From IMG/VR virus record IMGVR_UViG_3300046468_001412, positions 1 through 22,156 of that record: a stretch of DNA of 22,156 bases; one strand, given 5' to 3'. This DNA is from a virus. Positions within the stretch are counted from its first letter, which is position 1. Each line of letters opens with the position of its first letter. A program made the position numbers and the translations under genes. Of the stretch, positions 3,115 through 22,156 are shown one piece after another. The notes under the pieces are model-generated. The model saw only the letters and a program-made list of their open reading frames with translations, did not search any database and was not told the DNA's origin.

Positions 3115-3582
3115 CTACAGTTCAACAATTTTGTGAACTTTTGTATTTAATTGTCTAATGTCATTTTGTTGGGTAAGAAGAATACAATTACGATAATGCT
3201 TCCAATCAACTCTAAATCTGGTATCTACTATTCCACCGTTGAGGGATTTGATTAGGGTATTTAATGCATTGATTGTATATAGTGTATTTGTATCTTTTTT
3301 TCTATGTACTAGAATAGTATTGTCAGGAATAGTATCAACATTTCCTTGATCAACATTATATGTTATAACGTATTCACCTGTACTTTTAATAAAAAGGACA
3401 AACATTTTATTATACATTATACTGTATGAGTTAGATATAGAATATATCTTTTCGTCAATGAATTCTTCATCAACAAAAGTACAAAATAACTTATTATTCA
3501 CGTCTATTGTGTTTAGGGATTTTTCAAAATCGTATCCCTTATACATATATTGACTAGGGGGCAAAATCGTAGGTGCTTCCAT
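3115..3582 (-). CDS. Hypothetical protein between polymerase and gene 32
   Basis: A 155-residue protein I do not recognise. It has no membrane segment, signal peptide or metal-binding cluster. It alternates short hydrophobic strands (KMFVLFIKS, GEYVITYNV, NTILVHRKK) with charged turns, which suggests a small beta-rich or alpha/beta fold. With the first ATG the gene overlaps the polymerase gene by 29 bases. A second ATG at 3546 (residue 13, MYKGYDFEK) would remove the overlap and give 143 residues with a seven-base gap, and may be the true start. Its place between a DNA polymerase and gene 32 points to replication, recombination or their control, but that rests on position only. Confidence 0.7.
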   Translation of the reverse strand: MEAPTILPPSQYMYKGYDFEKSLNTIDVNNKLFCTFVDEEFIDEKIYSISNSYSIMYNKMFVLFIKSTGEYVITYNVDQGNVDTIPDNTILVHRKKDTNTLYTINALNTLIKSLNGGIVDTRFRVDWKHYRNCILLTQQNDIRQLNTKVHKIVEL

Positions 3583-4822
3583 AACTGTTTTTTATATTAA
3601 CTTGATATTTTTTAAAAATTTGTTCTATTTCTATTTCTAATTGTTCACTTTTGTCTAAATCAAATAAAAAACTATCGTAAGTATATAATACTAATTTAGT
3701 ATTTTTACCACATAGTAATTTATGTAACTCAATCAATATACAAATGTTAGTTGCGGTCTCCAAGTTTTGGAGGACATAATTAAACAACTTTTGAGGATTC
3801 ATATTGTCTAATTTTGACTTATAAAACCTATACCCAGAGGTTGGAACTTCTATATACCCCACCTCATTGAATTTCTTCCAGTTATCCTCAATATATACAC
3901 TTGTTTTCTTAAAGAATGGAAGGTCTTTATAATTATCAAATACTCCTCCGTATAATTGCTTAAAGGTTAATTCCTTTGCTTTCTTATATTCTACACCATA
4001 CATTTCGGCAAACGCTTGATGGATGTCTCCCTCACCGAAATCATAATCTACCAATTTAGCTGCTAAAGTGGGGTGATAAGCGGATATATCATATTCTACA
4101 AATTCATCATTTCGAGGTATAAAACTTTTTCTACAACCATTTTCCTTATTAAGAGCGGCATAATTAACTCCCCCAAATTTATTAGATGGTCTAGTCGTTA
4201 GTGTATTGTAGTTATATGATGTGTATACAAATTCGTCGTCAACTGGGTGAAAATGGGTTTCAAATTCATCTTTATTTATTTTAATTCCATTTTTTTCCAA
4301 TCCAAGGAAAGCTAATGGTGCCCACTTATTATAAAAATCGAAATATGGTGGTCTTTCTTCCTCGAATCCATGTTTTACATTATTGTATATCAATTGACAA
4401 GTCTCATAATGTTTTACTATAGGGATTATTGTATTGATATCTTTTTTATTTGGATATCTTTGGTATAATATATGATGAGCTTGTGTTTTATCTTGTATAT
4501 ACGGAGGAATAATTGTGGATACGTCGAGCAAGCTTTGAATTTGAAAATAAAATAATGTTGATTTTTTATCTCGGGTCCATAATGATTTAGTTTGTGTTAA
4601 TAATTCATTTACTAACGTTTTACTTACACCTAAACACTCGCTATGCGTAATACATAACATAAAACCTTTTGGCTCAACAAACGGTTTAAAATAAACTAGA
4701 GAAACATCATTATTAGCAGGATGAACATTATCACTTAAAGGTATTACTTCAATGAATGCATCTCTAAATTGCCTACTAATTAAATAATTTATTTGTTCTT
4801 CTGTCTCTACAAGCCAATACAT
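3554..4822 (-). CDS. Compact divergent family A DNA polymerase
   Basis: A 422-residue protein with the palm and fingers motifs of family A (Pol I) DNA polymerases. Before motif A there is WAPLAFLGLEKNGIKIN (about 167-183) and a TTRPSNKFGGVNYAAL segment, matching the Pol I region that binds primer-template. Motif A is VEYDISAYHP (D245). Motif B is KAKELTFKQLYGG, with K283, F287 and Y291 spaced like K758, F762 and Y766 of E. coli Pol I. Motif C is LYTYDSFLF (D383), where Pol I has HDE, so the Glu is replaced by Ser. The first 160 residues resemble a worn-down exonuclease domain with no clear DxE or DxxxD metal ligands. It is short for Pol I (about 930 aa) and T7 polymerase (704 aa). T4 itself uses a family B enzyme. 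It could be the main replicase, a gap-filling enzyme, or a partial enzyme. Confidence 0.8.
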   Translation of the reverse strand: MYWLVETEEQINYLISRQFRDAFIEVIPLSDNVHPANNDVSLVYFKPFVEPKGFMLCITHSECLGVSKTLVNELLTQTKSLWTRDKKSTLFYFQIQSLLDVSTIIPPYIQDKTQAHHILYQRYPNKKDINTIIPIVKHYETCQLIYNNVKHGFEEERPPYFDFYNKWAPLAFLGLEKNGIKINKDEFETHFHPVDDEFVYTSYNYNTLTTRPSNKFGGVNYAALNKENGCRKSFIPRNDEFVEYDISAYHPTLAAKLVDYDFGEGDIHQAFAEMYGVEYKKAKELTFKQLYGGVFDNYKDLPFFKKTSVYIEDNWKKFNEVGYIEVPTSGYRFYKSKLDNMNPQKLFNYVLQNLETATNICILIELHKLLCGKNTKLVLYTYDSFLFDLDKSEQLEIEIEQIFKKYQVNIKNSYGSTYDFAP

Positions 4823-10613: not shown

Positions 10614-13238
10614 TTATTGTTGTTCGTAATTGGTTAATGCTATAGTCCCACCAACTTTATTACCATCAATGTATACTCCTCCTTCTTTATTTAGAAGTTG
10701 TTCTAATAAATTTGCTATTCTTCCTAATTCAGCTGAGTTATTTCCTCCACCACCACCTGAGTTTCCTTTGTTAAATAAATCGGTTCCGGCAATTATATCA
10801 TCTTTATCATTTAAAGCAATAGCTCCTTCAGGACCCATTAATGTACGATTACCATATCCTCCTCCCCCTCCTGGAGAGAATACATCATCCCCTTTGAGGT
10901 AAGATTTACCTAATTGGTAGGCAGCTACTGCTGCACCTGCTGCTAATACAGGTCCTACAAAAGGAATACCAGCAACTGCTTTTGCAGCATTAATAGCTAA
11001 TCCACCTATAGATTTTAATATACCTTTAGTTTTTATTGCTTCTTGGGCAGCTCTAATTCCTTTTCCAGCTCCTAATACTACATTTTTTGCTACTTCTATT
11101 GCTTTTGATGCTTTTGCTTGTATAAGAGATCTTTTTTGCATAGCATATATTGCCCCAAATGTAGATAATGCAACTATTGCTGTTTCTTTTGTTTGGAATA
11201 AATAACCTAAAAATTGTGAAATTCCTGAGACCATGCTTTTAATCATGTTTCCAATAAAGGTGAATACAGGTTTTATAGCTTCTATTGTTACTCTAATTGC
11301 TTGTAAAACAACATCTAAAATTCCTGTATCTTCTAATAATGAGGTAAATCCTTCAACAATTCCTACTACTGATTCTAATATAATAGGCATAATTTCTTCC
11401 ATTATAGGAGCAAGAGCTGTTTGTAATCTTAATATTGCTTCCTCAAACATAATGTAAAATCTTCCACTTTTTTCATTTGCTACTAGTGAATCTTCTTCCA
11501 TTTTATTTTTTCGTTCCATTGCTGTAACTAAACCAGTCATAGCCTCTATACCTTGTTTCTGCATATCTACCATGTCTGTATTTTCTGCGGTAGATTCTTT
11601 TTGTGTAACAAGCATATCAGCCATTTGACCTCTATTCATACCTAAAGATTTAGCTAATGCTTCTTGTTGTATGACATTCATTGCAGAATAATCGGCTTGA
11701 GTAATACCTTGTTCAGCTAATGCATCCATTAAAGCAACATTATCACCATTCAATGCTGCTGCCCTTGCTTTTTCAAGGTTTAATTCTTTACCTGTTAATA
11801 ACTCAGCTTCCATTTCAGCTTGTAAAGAATCTTCTATATTAAGTAAAGATGAAGCAATTCCTTCTACTTGAGACATTTCTAAACCTAATTTTTTAGCTTG
11901 AGCTACTGCTGCTGTAATACCTTTAGCTGATCCTCCCATTGCTAACTTAACATTGCTAGAAACTTTTCCTACTGCTTGCATGAGAGATTTCATGCTGGTA
12001 TTAAGTTTTAGGTTTTTAATGGATATTTGGGCTTGTTTTGCCATTTCATCAGCAGTTTTTCCTGCTTCTTGTCCACTTAATTTAGATAGATTTTTTATTG
12101 CTTTTAAATCTTCTCCTGACATTTTTGCAAATTTCTGCAATTTCATGAATGATCTCATGGTTTTGTCAGTCATTTTTTCAGCACCATCCATTGAGCTGTA
12201 TATAGAACCAGCAGCTGCTGCTGCTTCTTTCCTTGTCATACCCATACCCGCAGCTGCTTTATTTGCTTGACTTGCTACTTCTGCAGTCTTGGAAGCTGAA
12301 AGGCCTAACTCTCTACCCATATCAGCAGAAGCTTGTTCAATACCCTTTATTGCATCTGCTGATTTTTTGGCTTTTTCTTTCATTTTTTGGAATGCAGATA
12401 CAGCCATACTAATAAGAGCTATTGGACCTAATGCAGTTTTTAAAGCCATTCCAAATCCTTTAGCTGCTATTCTCATTTTTGCAAACCCACCTATGACTTT
12501 TTTTCCACCATTAGTAGCAGCATAAGTCATTTCTTTAACTCTTTTAGAAGCATCTCCAAATACAGAACCAACTTTACTCATTCCCATTTTATTGAAAATA
12601 GTTGCTGCTCCTGATAATGCATCCCCTATAAGCCCCCCAGATTTAACTAAATTTGTCTGGCGTCGTTCTTGTTCACTTAGATGGGCTGCTATTTTTTCGT
12701 TTTCTATAGCTGATTGTTCCAAGACAACTACTTGTTCGGCTTGATTACTTAATTGCTGCCCTGCTATTCCTAATTCTTCTTCTTTTCTTGCTGCTAAATC
12801 TTTAGCTCTTTTAACTTGGTCATTAGTAATATTTAAACCTTGTTTTTGTTTATCAGTTAAAGATTTAACTAAACTATTAGCTTTTGATAGTCCTTCTGAT
12901 GTTTTTTTATAATTATCTATTGATTTCTTTTCAGTTTCATTAAGATTACCATTAATAGCTAATATTTGTTTTTTTATTTTTTCTTGGAGTTTTTCTTGTT
13001 TTGTTATATCTTTTTGTACCTGGTTTAAATTTTCATACTCAGAATTTACTTTTTGAACCATAGCGGATGATTCACGTACTAAACCTAAAGAAGCCTTATC
13101 TAATTCTGTTCTTCGTGTACTAGAAGATACTATATCTTTCATTACATCGGACAGGCTAGAGGCTATATTAAGTTGTTCCCCTAAAGCAGCATTTGCTTCT
13201 TCAATATTTTTCTTTTGTATTTCTTCTTTACTAGCCAT
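10614..13238 (-). CDS. Tape measure protein
   Basis: An 874-residue tail tape measure protein, which sets tail length and fills the tube lumen before being ejected with the DNA. The N-terminal 190 residues are a long charged coiled coil. A Gly/Ala-rich section with hydrophobic helices (about 255-290) and a helical Ala/Lys/Met-rich region (290-590) follow. Near the C-terminus are strongly hydrophobic segments (VVGIVEGFTSLL, IPFVGPVLAAGAAVAAY) that could act in membrane passage. The end has the typical late motif ALNDKDDIIAGTD, a Gly/Asn linker and a VYIDGNKVGG strand seen at the tip of many tape measures. It follows the gp26/gp51-like pair, the usual place after tail chaperones. At about 1.5 angstrom per residue a tail of the order of 130 nm would be expected, a rough estimate. 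Confidence 0.85.
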   Translation of the reverse strand: MASKEEIQKKNIEEANAALGEQLNIASSLSDVMKDIVSSSTRRTELDKASLGLVRESSAMVQKVNSEYENLNQVQKDITKQEKLQEKIKKQILAINGNLNETEKKSIDNYKKTSEGLSKANSLVKSLTDKQKQGLNITNDQVKRAKDLAARKEEELGIAGQQLSNQAEQVVVLEQSAIENEKIAAHLSEQERRQTNLVKSGGLIGDALSGAATIFNKMGMSKVGSVFGDASKRVKEMTYAATNGGKKVIGGFAKMRIAAKGFGMALKTALGPIALISMAVSAFQKMKEKAKKSADAIKGIEQASADMGRELGLSASKTAEVASQANKAAAGMGMTRKEAAAAAGSIYSSMDGAEKMTDKTMRSFMKLQKFAKMSGEDLKAIKNLSKLSGQEAGKTADEMAKQAQISIKNLKLNTSMKSLMQAVGKVSSNVKLAMGGSAKGITAAVAQAKKLGLEMSQVEGIASSLLNIEDSLQAEMEAELLTGKELNLEKARAAALNGDNVALMDALAEQGITQADYSAMNVIQQEALAKSLGMNRGQMADMLVTQKESTAENTDMVDMQKQGIEAMTGLVTAMERKNKMEEDSLVANEKSGRFYIMFEEAILRLQTALAPIMEEIMPIILESVVGIVEGFTSLLEDTGILDVVLQAIRVTIEAIKPVFTFIGNMIKSMVSGISQFLGYLFQTKETAIVALSTFGAIYAMQKRSLIQAKASKAIEVAKNVVLGAGKGIRAAQEAIKTKGILKSIGGLAINAAKAVAGIPFVGPVLAAGAAVAAYQLGKSYLKGDDVFSPGGGGGYGNRTLMGPEGAIALNDKDDIIAGTDLFNKGNSGGGGGNNSAELGRIANLLEQLLNKEGGVYIDGNKVGGTIALTNYEQQ

Positions 13239-13301: not shown

Positions 13302-13604
13302 TTATTTTAATTTACTTCTATCAGGATTAGCCCAATCTAAATTTGTATTACCTCCACCTCCAGATCCTTCATATGCTTTTTTTTCAGCTTCAGCTTTTTG
13401 ATTAATTGAGTCTTGAATAAATTTAAAAGTAATATTTCTTAACCACAAAGGCATATTATATACCGTGTCATAATCATATCCTTGTCCATAATAGATTATC
13501 TCGTGGATTTGTTTGAAAAGGTTAAACCTATACTCTTGAGTCAGGCCAAAAAAACTGTACCTCAATGGGTACTGCGACCTCCTCCTCGCCGTTTTTACCA
13601 TCAT
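13302..13604 (-). CDS. 51: gp51-like baseplate/tail assembly chaperone part, probably made by frameshift
   Basis: This frame resembles the gp51 assembly-catalyst region of T4-like phages: YRFNLFKQIHEIIYYGQGYDYDTVYNMPLWLRN, followed by a helical tail and a Gly/Asn-rich end (residues after the first written: about 27-100). The open frame overlaps the gp26-like gene by 77 bases in the +1 frame. The residues encoded before the T7 run (MMVKTARRRSQYPLR) look like a shadow of the gp26 frame, and the ATG at 13604 has no ribosome-binding signal. Two ways to express the real domain are visible: a +1 or -2 ribosomal slip at 13554-13548, giving a gp26-gp51 fusion of about 326 residues, or a TTG start at 13565, 12 bases after a GGAGGAGG sequence. 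It stops just before the tape measure unit, the normal place for tail chaperones. Confidence 0.7.
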   Translation of the reverse strand: MMVKTARRRSQYPLRYSFFGLTQEYRFNLFKQIHEIIYYGQGYDYDTVYNMPLWLRNITFKFIQDSINQKAEAEKKAYEGSGGGGNTNLDWANPDRSKLK

Positions 13605-14283
13605 AAAGAAAGGTCATTTGAATATCTGGTTGGGTTAATTTCAAATGTTGTCTAAATGAAGCTGAATCTCTAGCTAGCATATAACCGTCTACAAATTCAC
13701 GTATTGTTTTTTTATCGGCATCCCCATCAACTGAAATAATTTGATGTTTCAAACGGGTAGATATGTCAGCAGACACATTTTTATTAATGCGTTTTAAACC
13801 TTTAATTTCAGCTTCAATAGCTTTTTCATCTTTTCCGTTTAATATTTTATAAGTAATTTTATTTTTTGAGAATGGTAATTCATATTCAAATTCATTTACA
13901 CCTTTAATAATTGCATTTTCATCTAAAGTAACTGGGTTTAATTCGGATAGGTCAACTACTATTTCTTCCCCTTCATAAGTAAAAGGATAATCTTTACCAT
14001 ATCCTAATACACGGGCCGCGACCATAATTGCATTTTTATCCCCTATAAGTAAATCAGAATAATCAAATTTAGTAACTATTAAGGATTGGAGTAATTTATC
14101 AATTACAATACCTTGTTTAACATAATTTAAATTAGTCAAAATATCTTCTTCTTTAGCAGTCATGTATTTCATTTCTACTGTCCCAGAAGATAAAGGATGA
14201 CCTTCAGGATATAATAATCCTTTTGAAGGTAATTCAACGTGTTCTGTTGGGAATTTGAATTTGGGTTTTTCTTGTTGTTCCAT
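13528..14283 (-). CDS. 26: gp26-like baseplate hub / tail assembly protein
   Basis: A 251-residue protein of the T4 gp26-like baseplate family. The N-terminal segment VELPSKGLLYPEGHPLSSG (about 17-35) followed by VEMKYMTAKEEDILTN is the recognisable family start. It continues with a helical section ending in VAARVLGYGKDYPF, a beta region with Asp/Glu-rich strands (EEIVVDLSELNP), and a C-terminal helical region. T4 gp26 has 208 residues. The gene follows an intrinsic terminator and a variant promoter-like element, and it overlaps the gp51-like frame. Only its last six residues (WPDSRV) lie beyond the slippery run, as expected if a share of ribosomes change frame there. Position before the tape measure suggests a role like the lambda gpG/gpGT chaperones; this is inference. 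Confidence 0.8.
   Translation of the reverse strand: MEQQEKPKFKFPTEHVELPSKGLLYPEGHPLSSGTVEMKYMTAKEEDILTNLNYVKQGIVIDKLLQSLIVTKFDYSDLLIGDKNAIMVAARVLGYGKDYPFTYEGEEIVVDLSELNPVTLDENAIIKGVNEFEYELPFSKNKITYKILNGKDEKAIEAEIKGLKRINKNVSADISTRLKHQIISVDGDADKKTIREFVDGYMLARDSASFRQHLKLTQPDIQMTFLYDGKNGEEEVAVPIEVQFFWPDSRV
13548..13554 (-). other. Slippery T7 run, candidate programmed frameshift site
   Basis: The coding strand reads CAG TTT TTT TGG in the gp26 frame. A +1 (or -2) shift at the Phe codons enters the gp51-like frame (TTT TTT GGC CTG). A -1 shift would hit TGA after a few codons, so only +1 or -2 makes sense. The gp26 stop is 18 bases further on. Confidence 0.55.
13578..13587 (-). promoter_or_regulatory. 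Internal GGAGGAGG, Shine-Dalgarno-like
   Basis: The coding strand carries GAGGAGGAGG inside the gp26-like gene, the strongest Shine-Dalgarno-like string noticed in the window, whereas gene starts here lack such signals. It is 12 bases before a TTG in the gp51 frame and 23 bases before the T7 run. It may support internal initiation or pausing, or may simply encode Glu-Glu-Glu. Confidence 0.35.
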
Positions 14284-14385: not shown

Positions 14386-14874
14386 TTAGAAGTTCAATAC
14401 GCAATAATCCATTCCTAATACTACTGTCATATTTTGAGCAGCAGCTTCATTATCCCAGTTGTATTCTCCGAATTCGCCTGATTTAATAAATGCACCTTTT
14501 AAGATCCATTCCGAAACAATATCACCTACAGGTCCTAATACGTTGATTGTTACATCTTTTTTATACATATCAGAATAACCATCTCTACCAGTAACTGATT
14601 CATGGTGTAATCTTACCCATTCCATTACTGCTTGAGCTCCTGATGGAGTAATCGGATCAAATAGAGTCATTGTAACATCATTCCATGATAATTTACCTTT
14701 GATTTTTCTATAAGTGTTGATGTGGTTTAATTTAATTTCTTCCTGTGCAAATCCTACAGATGAAACACCTTTAATAGTATATGCAGGAATACCATCAACA
14801 TACATGATAAACCTATTTTGTACTTTCGGTTCGAAAGCTGTGAAGAAAATTTCGTTGGAATCTAATATCGCCAT
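14386..14874 (-). CDS. 19: Tail tube protein (gp19-like)
   Basis: A 162-residue major tail tube protein, which stacks as hexamers to form the inner DNA channel of the contractile tail. The T4 gp19 pattern is visible: NRFIMYVDGIPAYTIKGVSSVGF near the start (about 21-43), EEIKLNHINTYRKIKGKLSWNDVTMTLFDPI (45-75), VMEWVRLHHE, and a C-terminal strand set (WILKGAFIKSGEFGEYNWDN, MTVVLGMDYC). The length equals T4 gp19 (163 aa). It follows the sheath gene after 39 bases with its own promoter-like element between, and it is closed by an intrinsic terminator, so it can be made in high amounts from a short transcript. The start ATGGC has an A/T-only leader with no Shine-Dalgarno. Confidence 0.93.
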   Translation of the reverse strand: MAILDSNEIFFTAFEPKVQNRFIMYVDGIPAYTIKGVSSVGFAQEEIKLNHINTYRKIKGKLSWNDVTMTLFDPITPSGAQAVMEWVRLHHESVTGRDGYSDMYKKDVTINVLGPVGDIVSEWILKGAFIKSGEFGEYNWDNEAAAQNMTVVLGMDYCVLNF

Positions 14875-14913: not shown

Positions 14914-16641
14914 TTATGCAGGGAAAGTAGCTCCAGTTGGTAAAATATTGAAATCTAGGTAAATGAATTCAGCTGTTTTAGTAGGCTGGAGGTAAATTTG
15001 ACCAATCATTTCATTTCTATCAATTACGTCTGCTGAGTTGTTACTTTCATCCATAATCACTTTAAATGCATATAAACCTTGTCTTTGTTGTACTGTTTCT
15101 AAGTACGGGTTAACTTGGCTTATAAAAGCATTTCTTGTTGCAATTGTGTTTTGTTCAAATACTAAGTTTTGAGCTACATCTGAGATGTAGTTTTTCAAAG
15201 CAATTAATAATCTTCTAACATTTACTCTATCTAAAGCAGAAGCTTTAGTTTGTAATGTTTTCTGACCATATACTACTACTCCTGTTGCTGGGAATGAAGC
15301 AATTGGATTTGTTTTTCCTGAGTATAATGAATCACGTTGTGCTTGGGTTAATTTAACTTCAGGTCTAACAACTTGATCTAAACCACCTCTATTGATACCT
15401 GCAGGTGCAAACCATGGTTCAGAAACTGAATCATTAAATGCATATACTCCTGGGATCATTGTTGATGCTGGTACCCATACTAATTGACCGGAATTTGGAT
15501 CAATTACTTGTAACCAAGGCCAGTACGAAGCAGCATATGAAGTATTTCTAGCAGCTGCTTGAGTAGTTACTTGTGTTACTGTTGAACCATAATCAACTAA
15601 ATCCATTACAAAAATACTATCTCCTCTTTGTTGAGTATTATTAATTGCATTTGCAATTGGAGTAGCTAAATTAGTTCCTGAGTTAAATAAACCTGGGGTT
15701 GATAATGTATTGAATTTATAATCATCTTGGTTAGCTAATAAGCTAATCATGTTGGTATAATCAGCAGCTACTAAACCTTGAGTATTTGTATCTGTAATAT
15801 TTTCGTAAAAATTAACTCCATTAATTAAATCACCTTCTGCAGCTCCAAATGAACCACTAGCATTTACTGGAATCATATCAGCATATGCTGTTTTTGCAAC
15901 TCCATTATTATCAAAATAATTTGGTGTTAAGAAACCAGCAGTAACTGAAGCTACATAAATGTATCTTGAGTTTGATTTATAATTTCCGTTAACTGAAATT
16001 TGGTTATTAACTGAATCATAAGTTTCATACATATCACCTATTACTTTGGAAACAAAGTTAGAGGCTAAAGGATCTAATGATAAACCCGTCCATGCTTCAA
16101 CTACAATCTTATTATCAGTGTTATCATCACCTCTTCTAACAAGAAGATCAAATGTACCATTGGCAACATTTGAATTTGTTACTTCCCATCTTAAGTTATC
16201 AGAAGATCCACTTACTAATGCACCTTCAGCATCTTCAGCTCCGTCACTATTATAAATAACACCATCACCGAAAGTTTTGAATGTAATTCCATTAACTGCA
16301 GCTAAAGTACCACTACCAAATAAATCAGCTGATGAGCTTGCTGGAGTATAATCAGTAGCTGTATTAGCTACTCTTGATACTAAAAGTGTCTCACCACCAT
16401 TTGAAAAGTAATTAAATGCAGCGATTGATGTGAAATAAGAATATTCTAAACTACCACTAGTAAGAGTAGTTCCAAATCTACTTTCATAATCACTATAAGA
16501 AGTAACAACGGTTGGAACTTCTACTGGACCTTTTACTGTTGGACCAACAATAGCTGCCGCGTTTCTAATAGGTCTTTCGGAGATAAAAGAATTATCGTTT
16601 TCTCTTGCTAATACTCCTGGAGATATTAATGTTTCTGCCAT
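14914..16641 (-). CDS. 18: Contractile tail sheath protein (gp18-like)
   Basis: A 575-residue tail sheath protein, which surrounds the tube and contracts to drive it through the host envelope. The N-terminus has the conserved SPGVLARENDNSF and IRNAAAIVGPTVKGPVEVPTVVTSYSDYESRFG (about 7-60), followed by AAFNYFSNGGETLLVSRV. The central part (about 110-330) is a variable, Asn/Ser/Thr-rich protrusion domain. The C-terminal part has the sheath core: QKTLQTKASALDRVNVRRLLIALKNYI, then AQNLVFEQN and the final strand pair GQIYLQPTKTAEFIYLDFNI used for linking neighbouring subunits. The length is a bit below T4 gp18 (659 aa). It has its own promoter-like element 25 bases upstream of the ATG. Confidence 0.95.
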   Translation of the reverse strand: MAETLISPGVLARENDNSFISERPIRNAAAIVGPTVKGPVEVPTVVTSYSDYESRFGTTLTSGSLEYSYFTSIAAFNYFSNGGETLLVSRVANTATDYTPASSSADLFGSGTLAAVNGITFKTFGDGVIYNSDGAEDAEGALVSGSSDNLRWEVTNSNVANGTFDLLVRRGDDNTDNKIVVEAWTGLSLDPLASNFVSKVIGDMYETYDSVNNQISVNGNYKSNSRYIYVASVTAGFLTPNYFDNNGVAKTAYADMIPVNASGSFGAAEGDLINGVNFYENITDTNTQGLVAADYTNMISLLANQDDYKFNTLSTPGLFNSGTNLATPIANAINNTQQRGDSIFVMDLVDYGSTVTQVTTQAAARNTSYAASYWPWLQVIDPNSGQLVWVPASTMIPGVYAFNDSVSEPWFAPAGINRGGLDQVVRPEVKLTQAQRDSLYSGKTNPIASFPATGVVVYGQKTLQTKASALDRVNVRRLLIALKNYISDVAQNLVFEQNTIATRNAFISQVNPYLETVQQRQGLYAFKVIMDESNNSADVIDRNEMIGQIYLQPTKTAEFIYLDFNILPTGATFPA

Positions 16642-17727: not shown

Positions 17728-18939
17728 TTAATTTTTGTTATAAATATTAAGGGTTCTATTAATCGATGCAAGTACACGAGAAGGAGTAATAGTTTTGCTA
17801 CACTCAAATTGTCGTGGGGTATCTTTTTGATCTGGGCACCAATCCCAATCTCCAGGGTTAAGCCATTCTCTATTGAAACATCCAGTACATACATCCTCAT
17901 CATAATTAAATACACGTTCACAGTCTAAAAATTCACTATAAGGTTCACTAAATCCTGAAATTAAAGTAACGGGGGTTCCAGTAGCCCAAGCTAACCAACT
18001 TAAACCACTACCTACACCTATAAAAGCATCAGCATATTTAATATCTACCATTCTATCTTCTATAGGATAATCACCCGTTTTATCAATTATACCTTTTAAA
18101 GTACCTCCTAATTTAGAATCATGCCAATCATTACCTAAACGTTCTTTAGTAATCATAACTACTTTATAACCATTATCTTTTAAGTAATCAATTACTATTT
18201 GCCATCCTCCAGGATACATCCAATATTTGGCATGTGCCGAAGCATGAGGTGCTATAACAACATATTTTCCATCTATTTGTTTTCCTTTATTAGGTATTGT
18301 AATTTTTGGTTTTATTTCTTTATAATCTAAACCTAATATAGAAGTTGTTGTTTCACCTAAAGGATGTTGTTTAAAATCAATGGGAATTTTTGTATCATCA
18401 TATTTTTTATCTTCATTATAATGCCATCCAATACTATACATTGCGTATAAATTTTGCACTTCAGTTCCTGGTTTTACAAATTCTAATTCTGGGTATTCTT
18501 TTTCAAACCATTCATTATGAAATGTAGATGTAATTACTTCACAGTTCCATTTTTTTCTAAATTCATCTATATGAGGGAACCAAGCTAATGTATCTCCAAT
18601 AGCAGAAGAATCTAAATGAATGTAGATACGTTTTCCTTTAGGATTAAATATATGTTTTAATTCTACTTCTCCAGTTTCTTTATTTACTACTTCAATCTTC
18701 CAATTTATAAAATATTTAATATTAGAACGAGTCCACATATTATTAGTTACATCACAATAATATTTTAATTGGTTTGTATCTTGATCGTAAAAATTAATAG
18801 TATAATTTGCAGAATTAGGTCCTATTACTTCAGCAAATGCTCCTTTAATAAAATTAACTTTAAGTGTATTTGTTCCTTTTTTAAATGGGATACTTAATTG
18901 TTTAAGATTATTATATTCTTTTATCAATATTTCTTTCAT
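17728..18939 (-). CDS. GT9-like heptosyltransferase, TibC/Aah family
   Basis: A 403-residue glycosyltransferase resembling the bacterial autotransporter heptosyltransferase (TibC/Aah) family, which adds heptose to Ser on beta-helical proteins. An N-terminal beta-rich domain (about 1-110: NFIKGAFAEVIGPNSANYTINFYDQDT) precedes a GT-B core beginning IYIHLDSSAIGDTLAWFPHIDEFRKKW (about 130-156). The donor half has YVVIAPHASAHAKYWMYPGGWQIVIDYL and DAFIGVGSGLSWLAWATGTPVTLISG. At the C-terminus cysteines 351, 354, 368 and 380 form CX2CX13CX11C, similar to the iron-binding cysteine cluster of TibC. The gene overlaps the FkbM gene by four bases. Its last codons contain the promoter-like element for the fibre-like gene. 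Confidence 0.8.
   Translation of the reverse strand: MKEILIKEYNNLKQLSIPFKKGTNTLKVNFIKGAFAEVIGPNSANYTINFYDQDTNQLKYYCDVTNNMWTRSNIKYFINWKIEVVNKETGEVELKHIFNPKGKRIYIHLDSSAIGDTLAWFPHIDEFRKKWNCEVITSTFHNEWFEKEYPELEFVKPGTEVQNLYAMYSIGWHYNEDKKYDDTKIPIDFKQHPLGETTTSILGLDYKEIKPKITIPNKGKQIDGKYVVIAPHASAHAKYWMYPGGWQIVIDYLKDNGYKVVMITKERLGNDWHDSKLGGTLKGIIDKTGDYPIEDRMVDIKYADAFIGVGSGLSWLAWATGTPVTLISGFSEPYSEFLDCERVFNYDEDVCTGCFNREWLNPGDWDWCPDQKDTPRQFECSKTITPSRVLASINRTLNIYNKN
17739..17746 (-). promoter_or_regulatory. Late-promoter-like element inside the end of the GT9 gene
   Basis: The coding strand reads TTAATATTTATAACA, the exact consensus of the shared element, and also encodes the final residues LNIYN of the glycosyltransferase. 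It is 14 bases before the fibre-like ATG and would start the tail-structural transcripts. Confidence 0.55.
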
Positions 18940-19574
18940 ATCATTAAATAATCGTTTGTTGATATTTGTTTTTGTATTATTTTATATCCTAATTTTTCTA
19001 AATAAGGGACTGCTGTTTTACTATTATCTTCTAACCATATTGTAGGTTTATATTTTAATAGTAAATCTGTCATTCCTTCAAAAGCAGATAATTCATGTCC
19101 TTCTACATCAATTTTAATAAATTTAACAGGTTCAGGGAATGTAATTGTATCTAAAGCAATAACTAAATTAGTAATATTACTTTTAGGAACTATTTTTATT
19201 ACACCTGAGTTTTGTTCTTGTTCGTTTCCGAAATGAACCATTGAATTATTACTACCTACTCCTAAATTAAAACAATGAACATCATTATATCTATCAGTAT
19301 TAGTTTTTAATATATTATAATTTTCAAAAAATGGTTCAAAAGCCCATATCTTTAAATTAGGAAAATAATGTTTAAATTGAACACAATGGGCTCCTATATT
19401 AGCTCCAATATCCAACATTAATCCTTCTTTAGGGAACCAATGTTTAAAGTAATCAAATAATTCAAATTCCCAAAAATTATTATATTTTACTATATCATCT
19501 GATATACATTCAGGGCCCTCATATATTACCATAGGGGTATTTTTAATACTAACTAAACGGGTATTTCTTTTCAT
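18936..19574 (-). CDS. FkbM-family SAM-dependent methyltransferase
   Basis: A 212-residue methyltransferase of the FkbM type, which methylates hydroxyls on sugars or small molecules. The SAM-binding motif I is MLDIGANIGAHCVQF (about 53-67), followed by IWAFEPFFENYNILKTN (motif II area, acidic Glu after the second strand) and FIKIDVEGHELSAFEGM (about 147-163), the FkbM hallmark. The C-terminal strand is PTIWLED. The gene is linked by four-base overlaps to glycosyltransferases on both sides, so its substrate is probably a sugar added by them, perhaps capping a chain. Methylation of host lipopolysaccharide-type sugar or of a glycan on a virion protein are both possible. Confidence 0.88.
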   Translation of the reverse strand: MKRNTRLVSIKNTPMVIYEGPECISDDIVKYNNFWEFELFDYFKHWFPKEGLMLDIGANIGAHCVQFKHYFPNLKIWAFEPFFENYNILKTNTDRYNDVHCFNLGVGSNNSMVHFGNEQEQNSGVIKIVPKSNITNLVIALDTITFPEPVKFIKIDVEGHELSAFEGMTDLLLKYKPTIWLEDNSKTAVPYLEKLGYKIIQKQISTNDYLMI

Positions 19575-20521
19575 ATAACTGAATTATATAATTTTAATAT
19601 TTCTTTGGATCTATTATACCATGATAATTCTCTACCAGTATTAATAGATTGCTCAACATATGATTCCCAATTAGATAAAATATCTTTTAATCCTTTATCC
19701 ATTTCAAAAACATCACGAGGTGCTCTCCATGCCCCATGAAAATCAGTAGCATATTCCCAATTAGCAATAATAGGTAAACCAGCAGCTGCTGCTTCAATCA
19801 TTGTTAAATTAGGATGTCCTGCTTCTAACATAGTAGGATGAACAAATATGTCATGATCATGATACAATTCTAGTAATGTACTATTAGGAGTATCAAAAAC
19901 CAAATTTAATTTAGGATAATTTAACATCCATAAATGAGAATTAAAAAATTGTTTATTAGCTGAAGGTCCAGCTATAGTAATTTCTAAGTTATTCATCATT
20001 GCTAGCCCTAAACCATAAGTAAATCCTTTTCTATCAAATGAAGGATCACCAGCTAAACCATTATTAGCTACCATCAATAATTTGGGATTATTTAATGGAT
20101 GACGTTTAATTGTAGGATAAAACTCTTTAGTATTTACCCCATGGGCAAAATAAATACATTTATCATTAGCAAAATAATCTACTAAAAATTTAGCAGGCAT
20201 TAAGGATAATAGTGATCCCTCAATTGCTTTTAAATTTTGTTTATAAACAAATGAATCTTTACCATAATGATAAGCATGATGATCATGTAATTGATATATA
20301 TAAGGAATACCACGTGATGATAATTCAATAGCTAAATTAGCAACATGACAATGTACTATATCATACTCACCAGGTTTAATATCACCTGACCATTTTAAAT
20401 CAACTTCATGACCTAATTCTTTCTGATTACATATAAACTCCCATACTATTTTTTCAATTGCTCCCCATGATGGAGGGGGTACAGGAATTCCACATCCTGG
20501 ATGTACTTGTGCTATTCTCAT
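19571..20521 (-). CDS. GT4-family glycosyltransferase
   Basis: A 316-residue GT-B fold glycosyltransferase of family 4. The N-terminal acceptor half begins MRIAQVHPGCG and has PPSWGAIEKIVWEFI (about 16-30), the Gly-rich loop of GT4, then YDIVHCHVANLA and YIYQLHDHHAYHYGK. The donor half has LLMVANNGLAGDPSFDRKGF, ITIAGPSANKQFF, DIFVHPTMLEAGHPNLTMIEAAAAGLPIIANW (about 228-260). The catalytic EX7E motif appears as EX9E (E then nine residues then E), a slight stretch from the usual form. It is shorter than many GT4 enzymes (350-400 aa). It overlaps both neighbours by four bases (ATGA), so it is translated with the methyltransferase and the GT25 gene. The sugar donor cannot be read from sequence. 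Confidence 0.87.
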   Translation of the reverse strand: MRIAQVHPGCGIPVPPPSWGAIEKIVWEFICNQKELGHEVDLKWSGDIKPGEYDIVHCHVANLAIELSSRGIPYIYQLHDHHAYHYGKDSFVYKQNLKAIEGSLLSLMPAKFLVDYFANDKCIYFAHGVNTKEFYPTIKRHPLNNPKLLMVANNGLAGDPSFDRKGFTYGLGLAMMNNLEITIAGPSANKQFFNSHLWMLNYPKLNLVFDTPNSTLLELYHDHDIFVHPTMLEAGHPNLTMIEAAAAGLPIIANWEYATDFHGAWRAPRDVFEMDKGLKDILSNWESYVEQSINTGRELSWYNRSKEILKLYNSVI

Positions 20522-22156
20522 TTTGCGTAAATTTCAGGGCTATTTTCATCCATACCTTTAAATTCTTGTTCTATAATACTAAATCCGGGTAGGTGTTTTG
20601 TGTAGATTTTATCTGCTGTTCCTACTCTTAATTTAGCTACATTACATATCCATAAATCAAAAGCATCCCAAGGTAATGTATTTAATTTTTTTCTAATACC
20701 TTTTAATTTAGTTCTAGTAATTAAATACGATTGAGCAGGTACAAATGGAGTTACATCTGTATGGATTTCATCTATTTTAGGACCATTTAAATTTCTATTA
20801 TCTGTTGGATTACCAAACCCAATAATATCCATATCAGTTTTAATAGCTGTTTGGTTAAATTCAACTAATTTATTATATAATTCACTTATTGGTGTATCTA
20901 TAATAACGTCACCTTCAAATATTAATACATAATCATATTCTTCATTGTCTGATGCCAACATTGCGTTTTTATGCGCTAAAAAACAACCATAATGCCCAGG
21001 AGCTAATTTATAATATCCAGGTTTATCTTGGACATCATCTGGTCTATTACAATTATTTTTAGGTGGGGTATTTTTATAAATTTCATTAACACGTTGTTCA
21101 TACTTAATACCTGTTAGCTCACAAAATTCTTTAACACTTTCTATAGAAGTAATTTCTTTTTCATTTGTGTCAGGTTCCGTAACTAAATGCATTAATTTAA
21201 TTTTAGGTTTTCGAGCATATTCTTTAATACCACCTTTCCAATTAAATGTACCATTATTAGGCATTTTATTTAAAAAATAATCTTTATTTAAATTAAATAC
21301 GTGTTCTTTAATAAAGTCACCTGTGTTTAAATCGGTAATATGGAATTTTACTACTGTGTTATCATCTAATGAGTAAGGAACCATATCCCAAAAATAGTAT
21401 TTACCTGTAACTTCTAAATTTCTATCAATGATTATTTCACCATTTCTTTCTACAGTATAATGGATTAATTTACTTTCTTTAGCATTTGAAATAGTAATCC
21501 AAGGACAAAATCTACCAGGTACATTTGTTGGGAGAATACTGTAGTACTCTACCATTGAATAATCTTCAAAATCAAAATATTTTTCAGCATCTGATTCGAA
21601 TTTTTCTTTAGGTTCAATGTGATTATTTGGGTAATCTTTAAATAAATGGTAATACATATTTTCAATACCATTAGATTCAGATCCACAAGTAAACATCAAA
21701 TCATCATATTCTTTAGCTGAATGGATATCTGGTGTGTTTTCTAAGATTGGTTCTGGTTTAGAGCTAAAGAAATATGTATAATAACATTTGCCTTCTTGGG
21801 CTTCAAATTCACCAAAGAATGTATCTTTAGTATTTAGAATTTTAGAAATATAATTGATATAATCTTCATCTTTTAAAATATAATCATAATTAATAAAATG
21901 AAGCTTTTCAATACCTAAATTTTTAGCAAATGTAGCAGGGTTTCTAAAACTAGTGTAACAAGCAGGTCCATGGTATATATCATTATCTTCACCTTTTAAA
22001 TTTAAATTAGTATCATATAAATCTGTATAGAAATTAAAACTAGAGTAGTAAGTATGTTTTGTTAAGATATTATTAGCATCATAAAAAACATAATCAACCA
22101 TTTCTTGTAATTCCTTAGGAACAGGAGCATGTGATGAAATTATAATCTTTCTACCA
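20518..22156 (-). CDS. GT25-like glycosyltransferase, 5' end outside the window
   Basis: A protein of at least 545 residues. The ATG at 22101 gives 527 residues, but the frame stays open for 18 more codons to the window edge (GRKIIISSHAPVPKELQE), and these look like coding, an IIISSH strand, so the true start is outside. The C-terminal domain (from about residue 300 of the 527) is a GT25 (LPS-type) glycosyltransferase: IKLMHLVTEP, YYKLAPGHYGCFLAHKNAM (about 364-382) and YDYVLIFEGDVIIDTP, where EGD is the metal-binding motif. The upstream part includes an acidic region of unknown fold, perhaps another sugar-handling domain. A four-base overlap couples it to the GT4 gene. It probably acts on the same glycan as the next three genes. 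Confidence 0.8.
   Translation of the reverse strand, partial: GRKIIISSHAPVPKELQEMVDYVFYDANNILTKHTYYSSFNFYTDLYDTNLNLKGEDNDIYHGPACYTSFRNPATFAKNLGIEKLHFINYDYILKDEDYINYISKILNTKDTFFGEFEAQEGKCYYTYFFSSKPEPILENTPDIHSAKEYDDLMFTCGSESNGIENMYYHLFKDYPNNHIEPKEKFESDAEKYFDFEDYSMVEYYSILPTNVPGRFCPWITISNAKESKLIHYTVERNGEIIIDRNLEVTGKYYFWDMVPYSLDDNTVVKFHITDLNTGDFIKEHVFNLNKDYFLNKMPNNGTFNWKGGIKEYARKPKIKLMHLVTEPDTNEKEITSIESVKEFCELTGIKYEQRVNEIYKNTPPKNNCNRPDDVQDKPGYYKLAPGHYGCFLAHKNAMLASDNEEYDYVLIFEGDVIIDTPISELYNKLVEFNQTAIKTDMDIIGFGNPTDNRNLNGPKIDEIHTDVTPFVPAQSYLITRTKLKGIRKKLNTLPWDAFDLWICNVAKLRVGTADKIYTKHLPGFSIIEQEFKGMDENSPEIYAK

Follow-up and report, generated by a model that had tools for sequence, protein, structure and literature searches.

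Frameshifted tail assembly chaperones (TACs) are a classic feature of long-tailed phages. In lambda (gpG/gpGT) and P2 (gpE/E+E'), a short and a long chaperone are encoded before the tape measure gene, as at the locus described here, and the slip sequence of lambda is GGGAAAG. Both of these phages differ from the present case in using -1 slippage (for lambda, PMC5009743). In their treatment of frameshifted tail chaperones, Atkins et al. 2016 added the words 'except T4' (PMC5009743). T4 too has a short and a long chaperone, gp26 and gp51, which belong to the family of the TAC studied here; T4 encodes them in two distinct genes, one on each strand, and uses no frameshift. The TAC genes of T4-like phages were reportedly identified by Vladimirov, Gautam and Davidson 2022 (Virology, pmid 34826709), whose abstract is said to describe frameshifting as conserved in several T4-like groups. 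Passages that cite Vladimirov et al. 2022 state that a short and a long gene replace frameshifting in some T4-like phages (PMC10885494), and that poly-T sites are known in the TAC-N genes of T4-like phages (PMC12846349). In the Kyanoviridae P-SSM2 and S-PM2, a homologous short chaperone (TAC-N, PHROG_150) ends in a T-rich site and is overlapped in another frame by its extension (TAC-C), as at this locus; there, however, the extension is read in the -1 frame and the joins are AGT TTT TTC or TCT TTT TTC, whereas here it lies in the +1 frame and the join is TTT TTT TGG.

Shifts in the +1 direction are known from prfB, encoding release factor 2, and from the UUU_Y site of YopN-TyeA, in which CUU_U or UUU_U in the P site slips forward, and a CTT TGG variant found among relatives of the present site resembles the CUU UGA of prfB. 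In prfB the A site holds a stop codon and a Shine-Dalgarno (SD) sequence lies 3 nt upstream, whereas the A-site codon of the TAC site is the sense codon UGG; YopN-TyeA likewise has a sense codon there (PMC5009743). The authors of PRFect rank CCC and UUU just below CUU in slipperiness ahead of a stop codon (PMC10885494), and the SEA-PHAGES training set of that program includes 350 forward sites; +1 TACs are thus known elsewhere. The tail chaperone gene of the archaeal myovirus HSTV-2 is very likely expressed by a +1 shift (PMC5009743), although this virus and its host are unrelated to the phage considered here. The preliminary description of this locus had also cited SPP1-like phages for a +1 chaperone. 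That comparison was wrong, since the +1 shift of SPP1 belongs to its tail tube gene and the SPP1 TAC is a putative -1 case (PMC6316719). The same description called fused expression an unusual arrangement for a T4-like phage, which holds for T4 itself with its separate genes, but not for other T4-like groups, such as the cyanophages with their -1 shift. A frameshifted TAC is therefore known from other phages; what distinguishes the present one is its +1 direction, unlike the -1 of cyanophages, and the fact that current annotations miss it.

The locus was found in a virus record of 22,156 bases (IMG/VR IMGVR_UViG_3300046468_001412), the whole of which was analysed and is referred to below as the window. 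The main genes are all on the minus strand, in the order sheath-tube-TAC-tape measure. Genes for a tail sheath protein (14914..16641; phrog_23, E 1.1e-70) and a tail tube protein (14386..14874; phrog_4542, E 3.5e-24) precede the TAC, and a probable tape measure gene of 874 aa (10614..13238) follows it directly on the 3' side. The latter assignment is suggested by a long ORF in the right place; its match to the PHROG_167 tape measure family is weak (0.2), and the syntenic gene of Flavobacterium phage immuto carries the annotation tail tape measure. The order tube-TAC-tape measure is the same in immuto, Bacillus phage SP-15 and Listeria phage LIS04, and the placement of the pair directly before the tape measure gene, in the position of a tail chaperone, was correctly recognised at the outset.

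TAC-N, the short chaperone of 251 aa, is read in the zero frame from the minus strand (13528..14283), and an ORF in the +1 frame, ending at 13302, overlaps it by 77 nt (13528-13604). The first frame ends CAG TTT TTT TGG CCT GAC TCA AGA GTA TAG, with the TAG of TAC-N at 13528, and the +1 frame reads TTT TTT GGC CTG ACT CAA over the same stretch. The predicted shift site is the T7 run at 13548..13554, six codons before the stop, which contains the two Phe codons (13554-13552 and 13551-13549) and the T that would be skipped. From GGC onwards the extension TAC-C (GLTQEYR..., 13302..13547, minus strand) comprises 81 aa and a stop codon, and the predicted frameshift product TAC-NC (...VQFF-GLTQEY..., 13305..14283, minus strand) has 326 aa. 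These coordinates, the overlap, the relative frame and the codons of the junction are as first described. A lambda-type -1 slip (XXXYYYZ) was considered and rejected, as it had been from the start, because in the window it would read TTG GCC TGA, meeting a stop two codons past the run, and the relatives of the main set all carry the extension in the +1 frame.

Apart from the run at the junction, the minus (coding) strand of the window has no T7. Across both strands the window contains 21 T7 matches, 20 of them on the plus strand, where they read as A7 in the coding sense. By chance, 46 would be expected on both strands. In DNA this rich in AT, a T7 on its own is no rarer than chance would have it. 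Since such runs are common by chance, the case rests on comparison with relatives.

TAC-N matches PHROG_150, annotated as 'baseplate hub' (E 3.6e-9), a family that includes both T4 gp26 and T4 gp51. When TAC-N and TAC-C were joined in silico into the 326-aa fusion, the match was extended from positions 7-186 to positions 7-278 of the 282 in the profile and its score rose (E 1.6e-11); the frameshift product would therefore be co-linear with the long form. A two-sequence comparison shows T4 gp26 and gp51 to be homologues of each other as well (E 2e-6). When the profile of the fusion was compared directly with T4 gp51 as one sequence, no match was found, and the link came through PHROG_150 instead; a PDB sequence search with the fusion alignment likewise gave no match. 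TAC-C resembles the TAC-C of cyanophages (hhalign E 2.8e-5, probability 74%) and matches PHROG_634 weakly (0.029). Among 47 aligned TAC-C members, 11 show a weak Pfam match to DUF6760 (PF20546), a domain of unknown function, with a best E of 0.0011. TAC-N alone was modelled by AlphaFold2 with a pLDDT of 91, and the model clearly matches predicted viral structures, including the SP-15 baseplate hub subunit (Foldseek E 2e-17); its top match in the PDB is the HK97 tail assembly chaperone 2ob9, which is suggestive only, because E = 1.0 (probability 0.33). Judged by the family matches and gene order, the pair is the short and the long tail assembly chaperone, TAC-N and TAC-NC, preceding the tape measure gene. 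The terms gp26-like and gp51-like, under which the two reading frames had been introduced, correctly convey two joined domains but are less apt as names, since T4 gp51 itself contains the two domains, gp26 being the short copy; TAC-N and TAC-C are used here instead.

Relatives were collected by scanning IMG/VR with the 251-aa protein, which gave 80 loci, and again with the homologue from Microcystis phage Mel-JY01, which gave 80 further loci; after removal of duplicates the main set consisted of 139 distinct loci in 108 clusters (12-mer containment below 25%). Scans queried with the proteins of SP-15 and Rhodothermus phage RM378 returned only the queries themselves. Annotated isolates with a TAC-N homologue are immuto, Mel-JY01, SP-15, LIS04, Streptococcus phage GXN1 and RM378. 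In every one of the 139 loci an ORF in the +1 frame crosses the end of the first gene, and overlap, frame and site are all kept. The preliminary description had proposed such a comparison, to be counted against it if homologues started the second gene at an ATG of its own and kept no slippery run; carried out on the main set, the comparison did not refute its reading. Differences in TAC-C among 384 pairs are distributed over codon positions 1, 2 and 3 as 1385, 751 and 4238, and by this pattern TAC-C evolves as a protein in the +1 frame, under purifying selection.

Conservation is strongest at the proposed site. Its nine bases are TTTTTTTGG in 92 of the 108 clusters and TTTCTTTGG, TTTTTTTTC, TTTTTTTAC, TTTCTTTAC, CTTTTTTGG, TTTCTATTC or TTTCTATGG in the others, and CCT always follows directly. 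The shift codons are TTT TTT in 98 clusters, and the only variants in the main set are CTT and CTA, never TTC; immuto, for example, has TTT CTT TGG. Phe is thus encoded at these two positions by TTT in 206 of 206 cases, whereas in the remainder of these genes TTT accounts for 77% of the Phe codons; the nominal probability of this excess, 10^-23, is not to be read literally, because the clusters share kinship. Of 77 conserved degenerate columns in the same alignment, only three have a single codon throughout, namely F, F and P of the motif F-F-W-P, while the column ranking next stands at 89% and the median at 65%. CCT is held constant by its use in both reading frames (WP and GL) and not by slippage, and it is the two invariant TTT codons that mark the presumed shift site. 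Taken together, the comparative data strongly support a programmed shift into the +1 frame at the T run, joining the two TAC domains ahead of the tape measure gene.

The same frame would be entered by a -2 slip, as in phage Mu, with one extra residue (FFF-GLT), and the initial reading had accordingly been worded as '+1 or -2'. Its first part, a shift into the +1 frame, is upheld. In a pure T7 run the frame offset alone fits both directions equally, as P-site tRNA-Phe could re-pair at -2 as well as at +1. Three variant sites separate them: at TTT CTA T (L004 and L017) and at TTC TTT C (GXN1) re-pairing at -2 is impossible while +1 is possible. Shifted one base forward, the P-site tRNA can pair again in every variant, at one or other of the two codons, as UUU_Y or CUU_U; SP-15, GXN1, LIS04 and RM378 are included in this. 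A shift by +1 is accordingly favoured over -2 by the variant sites, and backward slippage is considered improbable, though it is the least improbable of the alternatives weighed here.

The claim that the second domain has no good ATG of its own proved too strong. The +1 ORF of the window contains ATG ATG (13599..13604, minus strand; the codons begin at 13604 and 13601), a possible independent start, and a TTG at 13565, which follows AGGAGGAGGT; with an SD-like element close by, TAC-C might be made from one of these as a separate protein. None of these codons is conserved. No ATG, GTG or TTG lies between the upstream stop and the conserved domain of TAC-C in 40 of the 108 clusters, often because the +1 frame is closed three to five codons before GGC; 62 clusters have no ATG upstream of the domain, and two loci (L114 and L142) have none of the three codons anywhere in the +1 ORF. 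Independent initiation would also leave the exclusive use of TTT unexplained, and T4 gp51 has both domains in one chain. It is therefore a very unlikely explanation, and frameshifting would be the only ordinary route to TAC-C, given the 40 clusters and two loci that have no start. Slippage of the RNA polymerase on the T7 tract, yielding mRNAs with differing numbers of U's, would be helped by the homopolymer present in most members, but in 10 of the 108 clusters the run is broken (TTTCTTT, TTTCTAT) or only a T6 (CTTTTTT), with frame and domain both kept, so that transcriptional slippage is unlikely and is given slightly less credence still than a separate start. As for a sequencing or assembly error, to which homopolymers are prone, or a decaying gene, the identical frame offset in 139 distinct contigs and isolate genomes, together with the purifying selection on TAC-C, reduces its likelihood almost to nil, and the preservation of the arrangement across isolates and contigs is regarded as a refutation.

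The elements known to stimulate +1 shifts, which are common but not universal, are an A-site stop codon, an SD sequence at 3 nt and downstream structure. At the TAC site the A-site codon is UGG, no SD sequence lies at 3 nt, and folding of 70 nt downstream at 107 loci gave no signal of RNA structure, the mean z of -0.65 being the same as in the upstream control. An SD-like element with GAGGAGG (GAGGAGGAGGT, 13577..13587, minus strand) is located about 23-33 nt 5' of the shift codons. In the 60 nt upstream of the site, SD-like motifs are 11-fold denser than in the remainder of the gene, and GAG makes up 64% of the Glu codons there vs 19% elsewhere; the element thus looks to be under selection at the nucleotide level, through codon choice, in many relatives. 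No conserved start codon was found after it among the relatives. A distance of 23-33 nt is too great for the known geometry of RF2 or dnaX, and it fits no known mechanism. The element may help the +1 shift.

The locus with high probability encodes a short and a long TAC of a contractile-tailed T4-like phage, the long form being made by a +1 shift within U7. Most ribosomes would translate TAC-N and terminate at the TAG at 13528. In a minority, the UUU in the P site, with a further U behind it (UUU_U), would be paired with peptidyl-tRNA-Phe; this tRNA would move ahead by one base within U7 and pair with UUU again, after which reading would resume at GGC CUG ACU and give the 326-residue TAC-NC. 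If the analogy with lambda gpG/gpGT holds, the tape measure protein would be coated by TAC-N, and tail tube subunits would be recruited by TAC-C. What the sequences show directly is the conservation of frame and site, the coding nature of both parts, the missing starts in many relatives and the homology to the T4 chaperone family; a low-frequency +1 shift of ribosomes, and a role of the products like that of gpG and gpGT, are inferred.

In public records TAC-C is reduced to stubs of 36-39 aa starting from an inner ATG in immuto (gp038; L002, 3354-3464) and SP-15 (SP15_046; L005, 3309-3428), and it is omitted from that of LIS04 (L175, after 2208). Two mis-annotated fragments would thus be united in a single chaperone that comes in a short and a long form, and the site TTTTTTTGGCCT would point to the right gene model in many T4-like phages from the environment. 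The loci also form a large natural set for the study of +1 slippage at a sense codon. Whether a widespread T4-like clade uses a sense-codon +1 shift (UUU_UGG), perhaps aided by the SD-like element, as opposed to the -1 shift of cyanophages and the two genes of T4, is put at about even chances; if true, one gene family would hold three solutions to one stoichiometry problem. Because -1, +1 and two-gene solutions occur in homologous genes, the evolution of frameshift direction can be studied. In a distant huge-phage relative (LR756511, L008), the C-terminal ORF is in the -1 frame and its ATG overlaps the TAA of TAC-N (TAATGG), and this ORF may use its own start instead of a +1 shift.

Elsewhere in the window, the region 17728-22155, adjoining the tail genes, encodes a family 9 glycosyltransferase, an FkbM-type methyltransferase, a group 1 glycosyltransferase and a gene resembling family 25 glycosyltransferases. 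Two overlapping ORFs at 3115-3582 and 3554-4822 have no Pfam match; the larger contains motifs that by eye resemble the palm domain of family A DNA polymerases, and the two are possibly a divergent or split polymerase.
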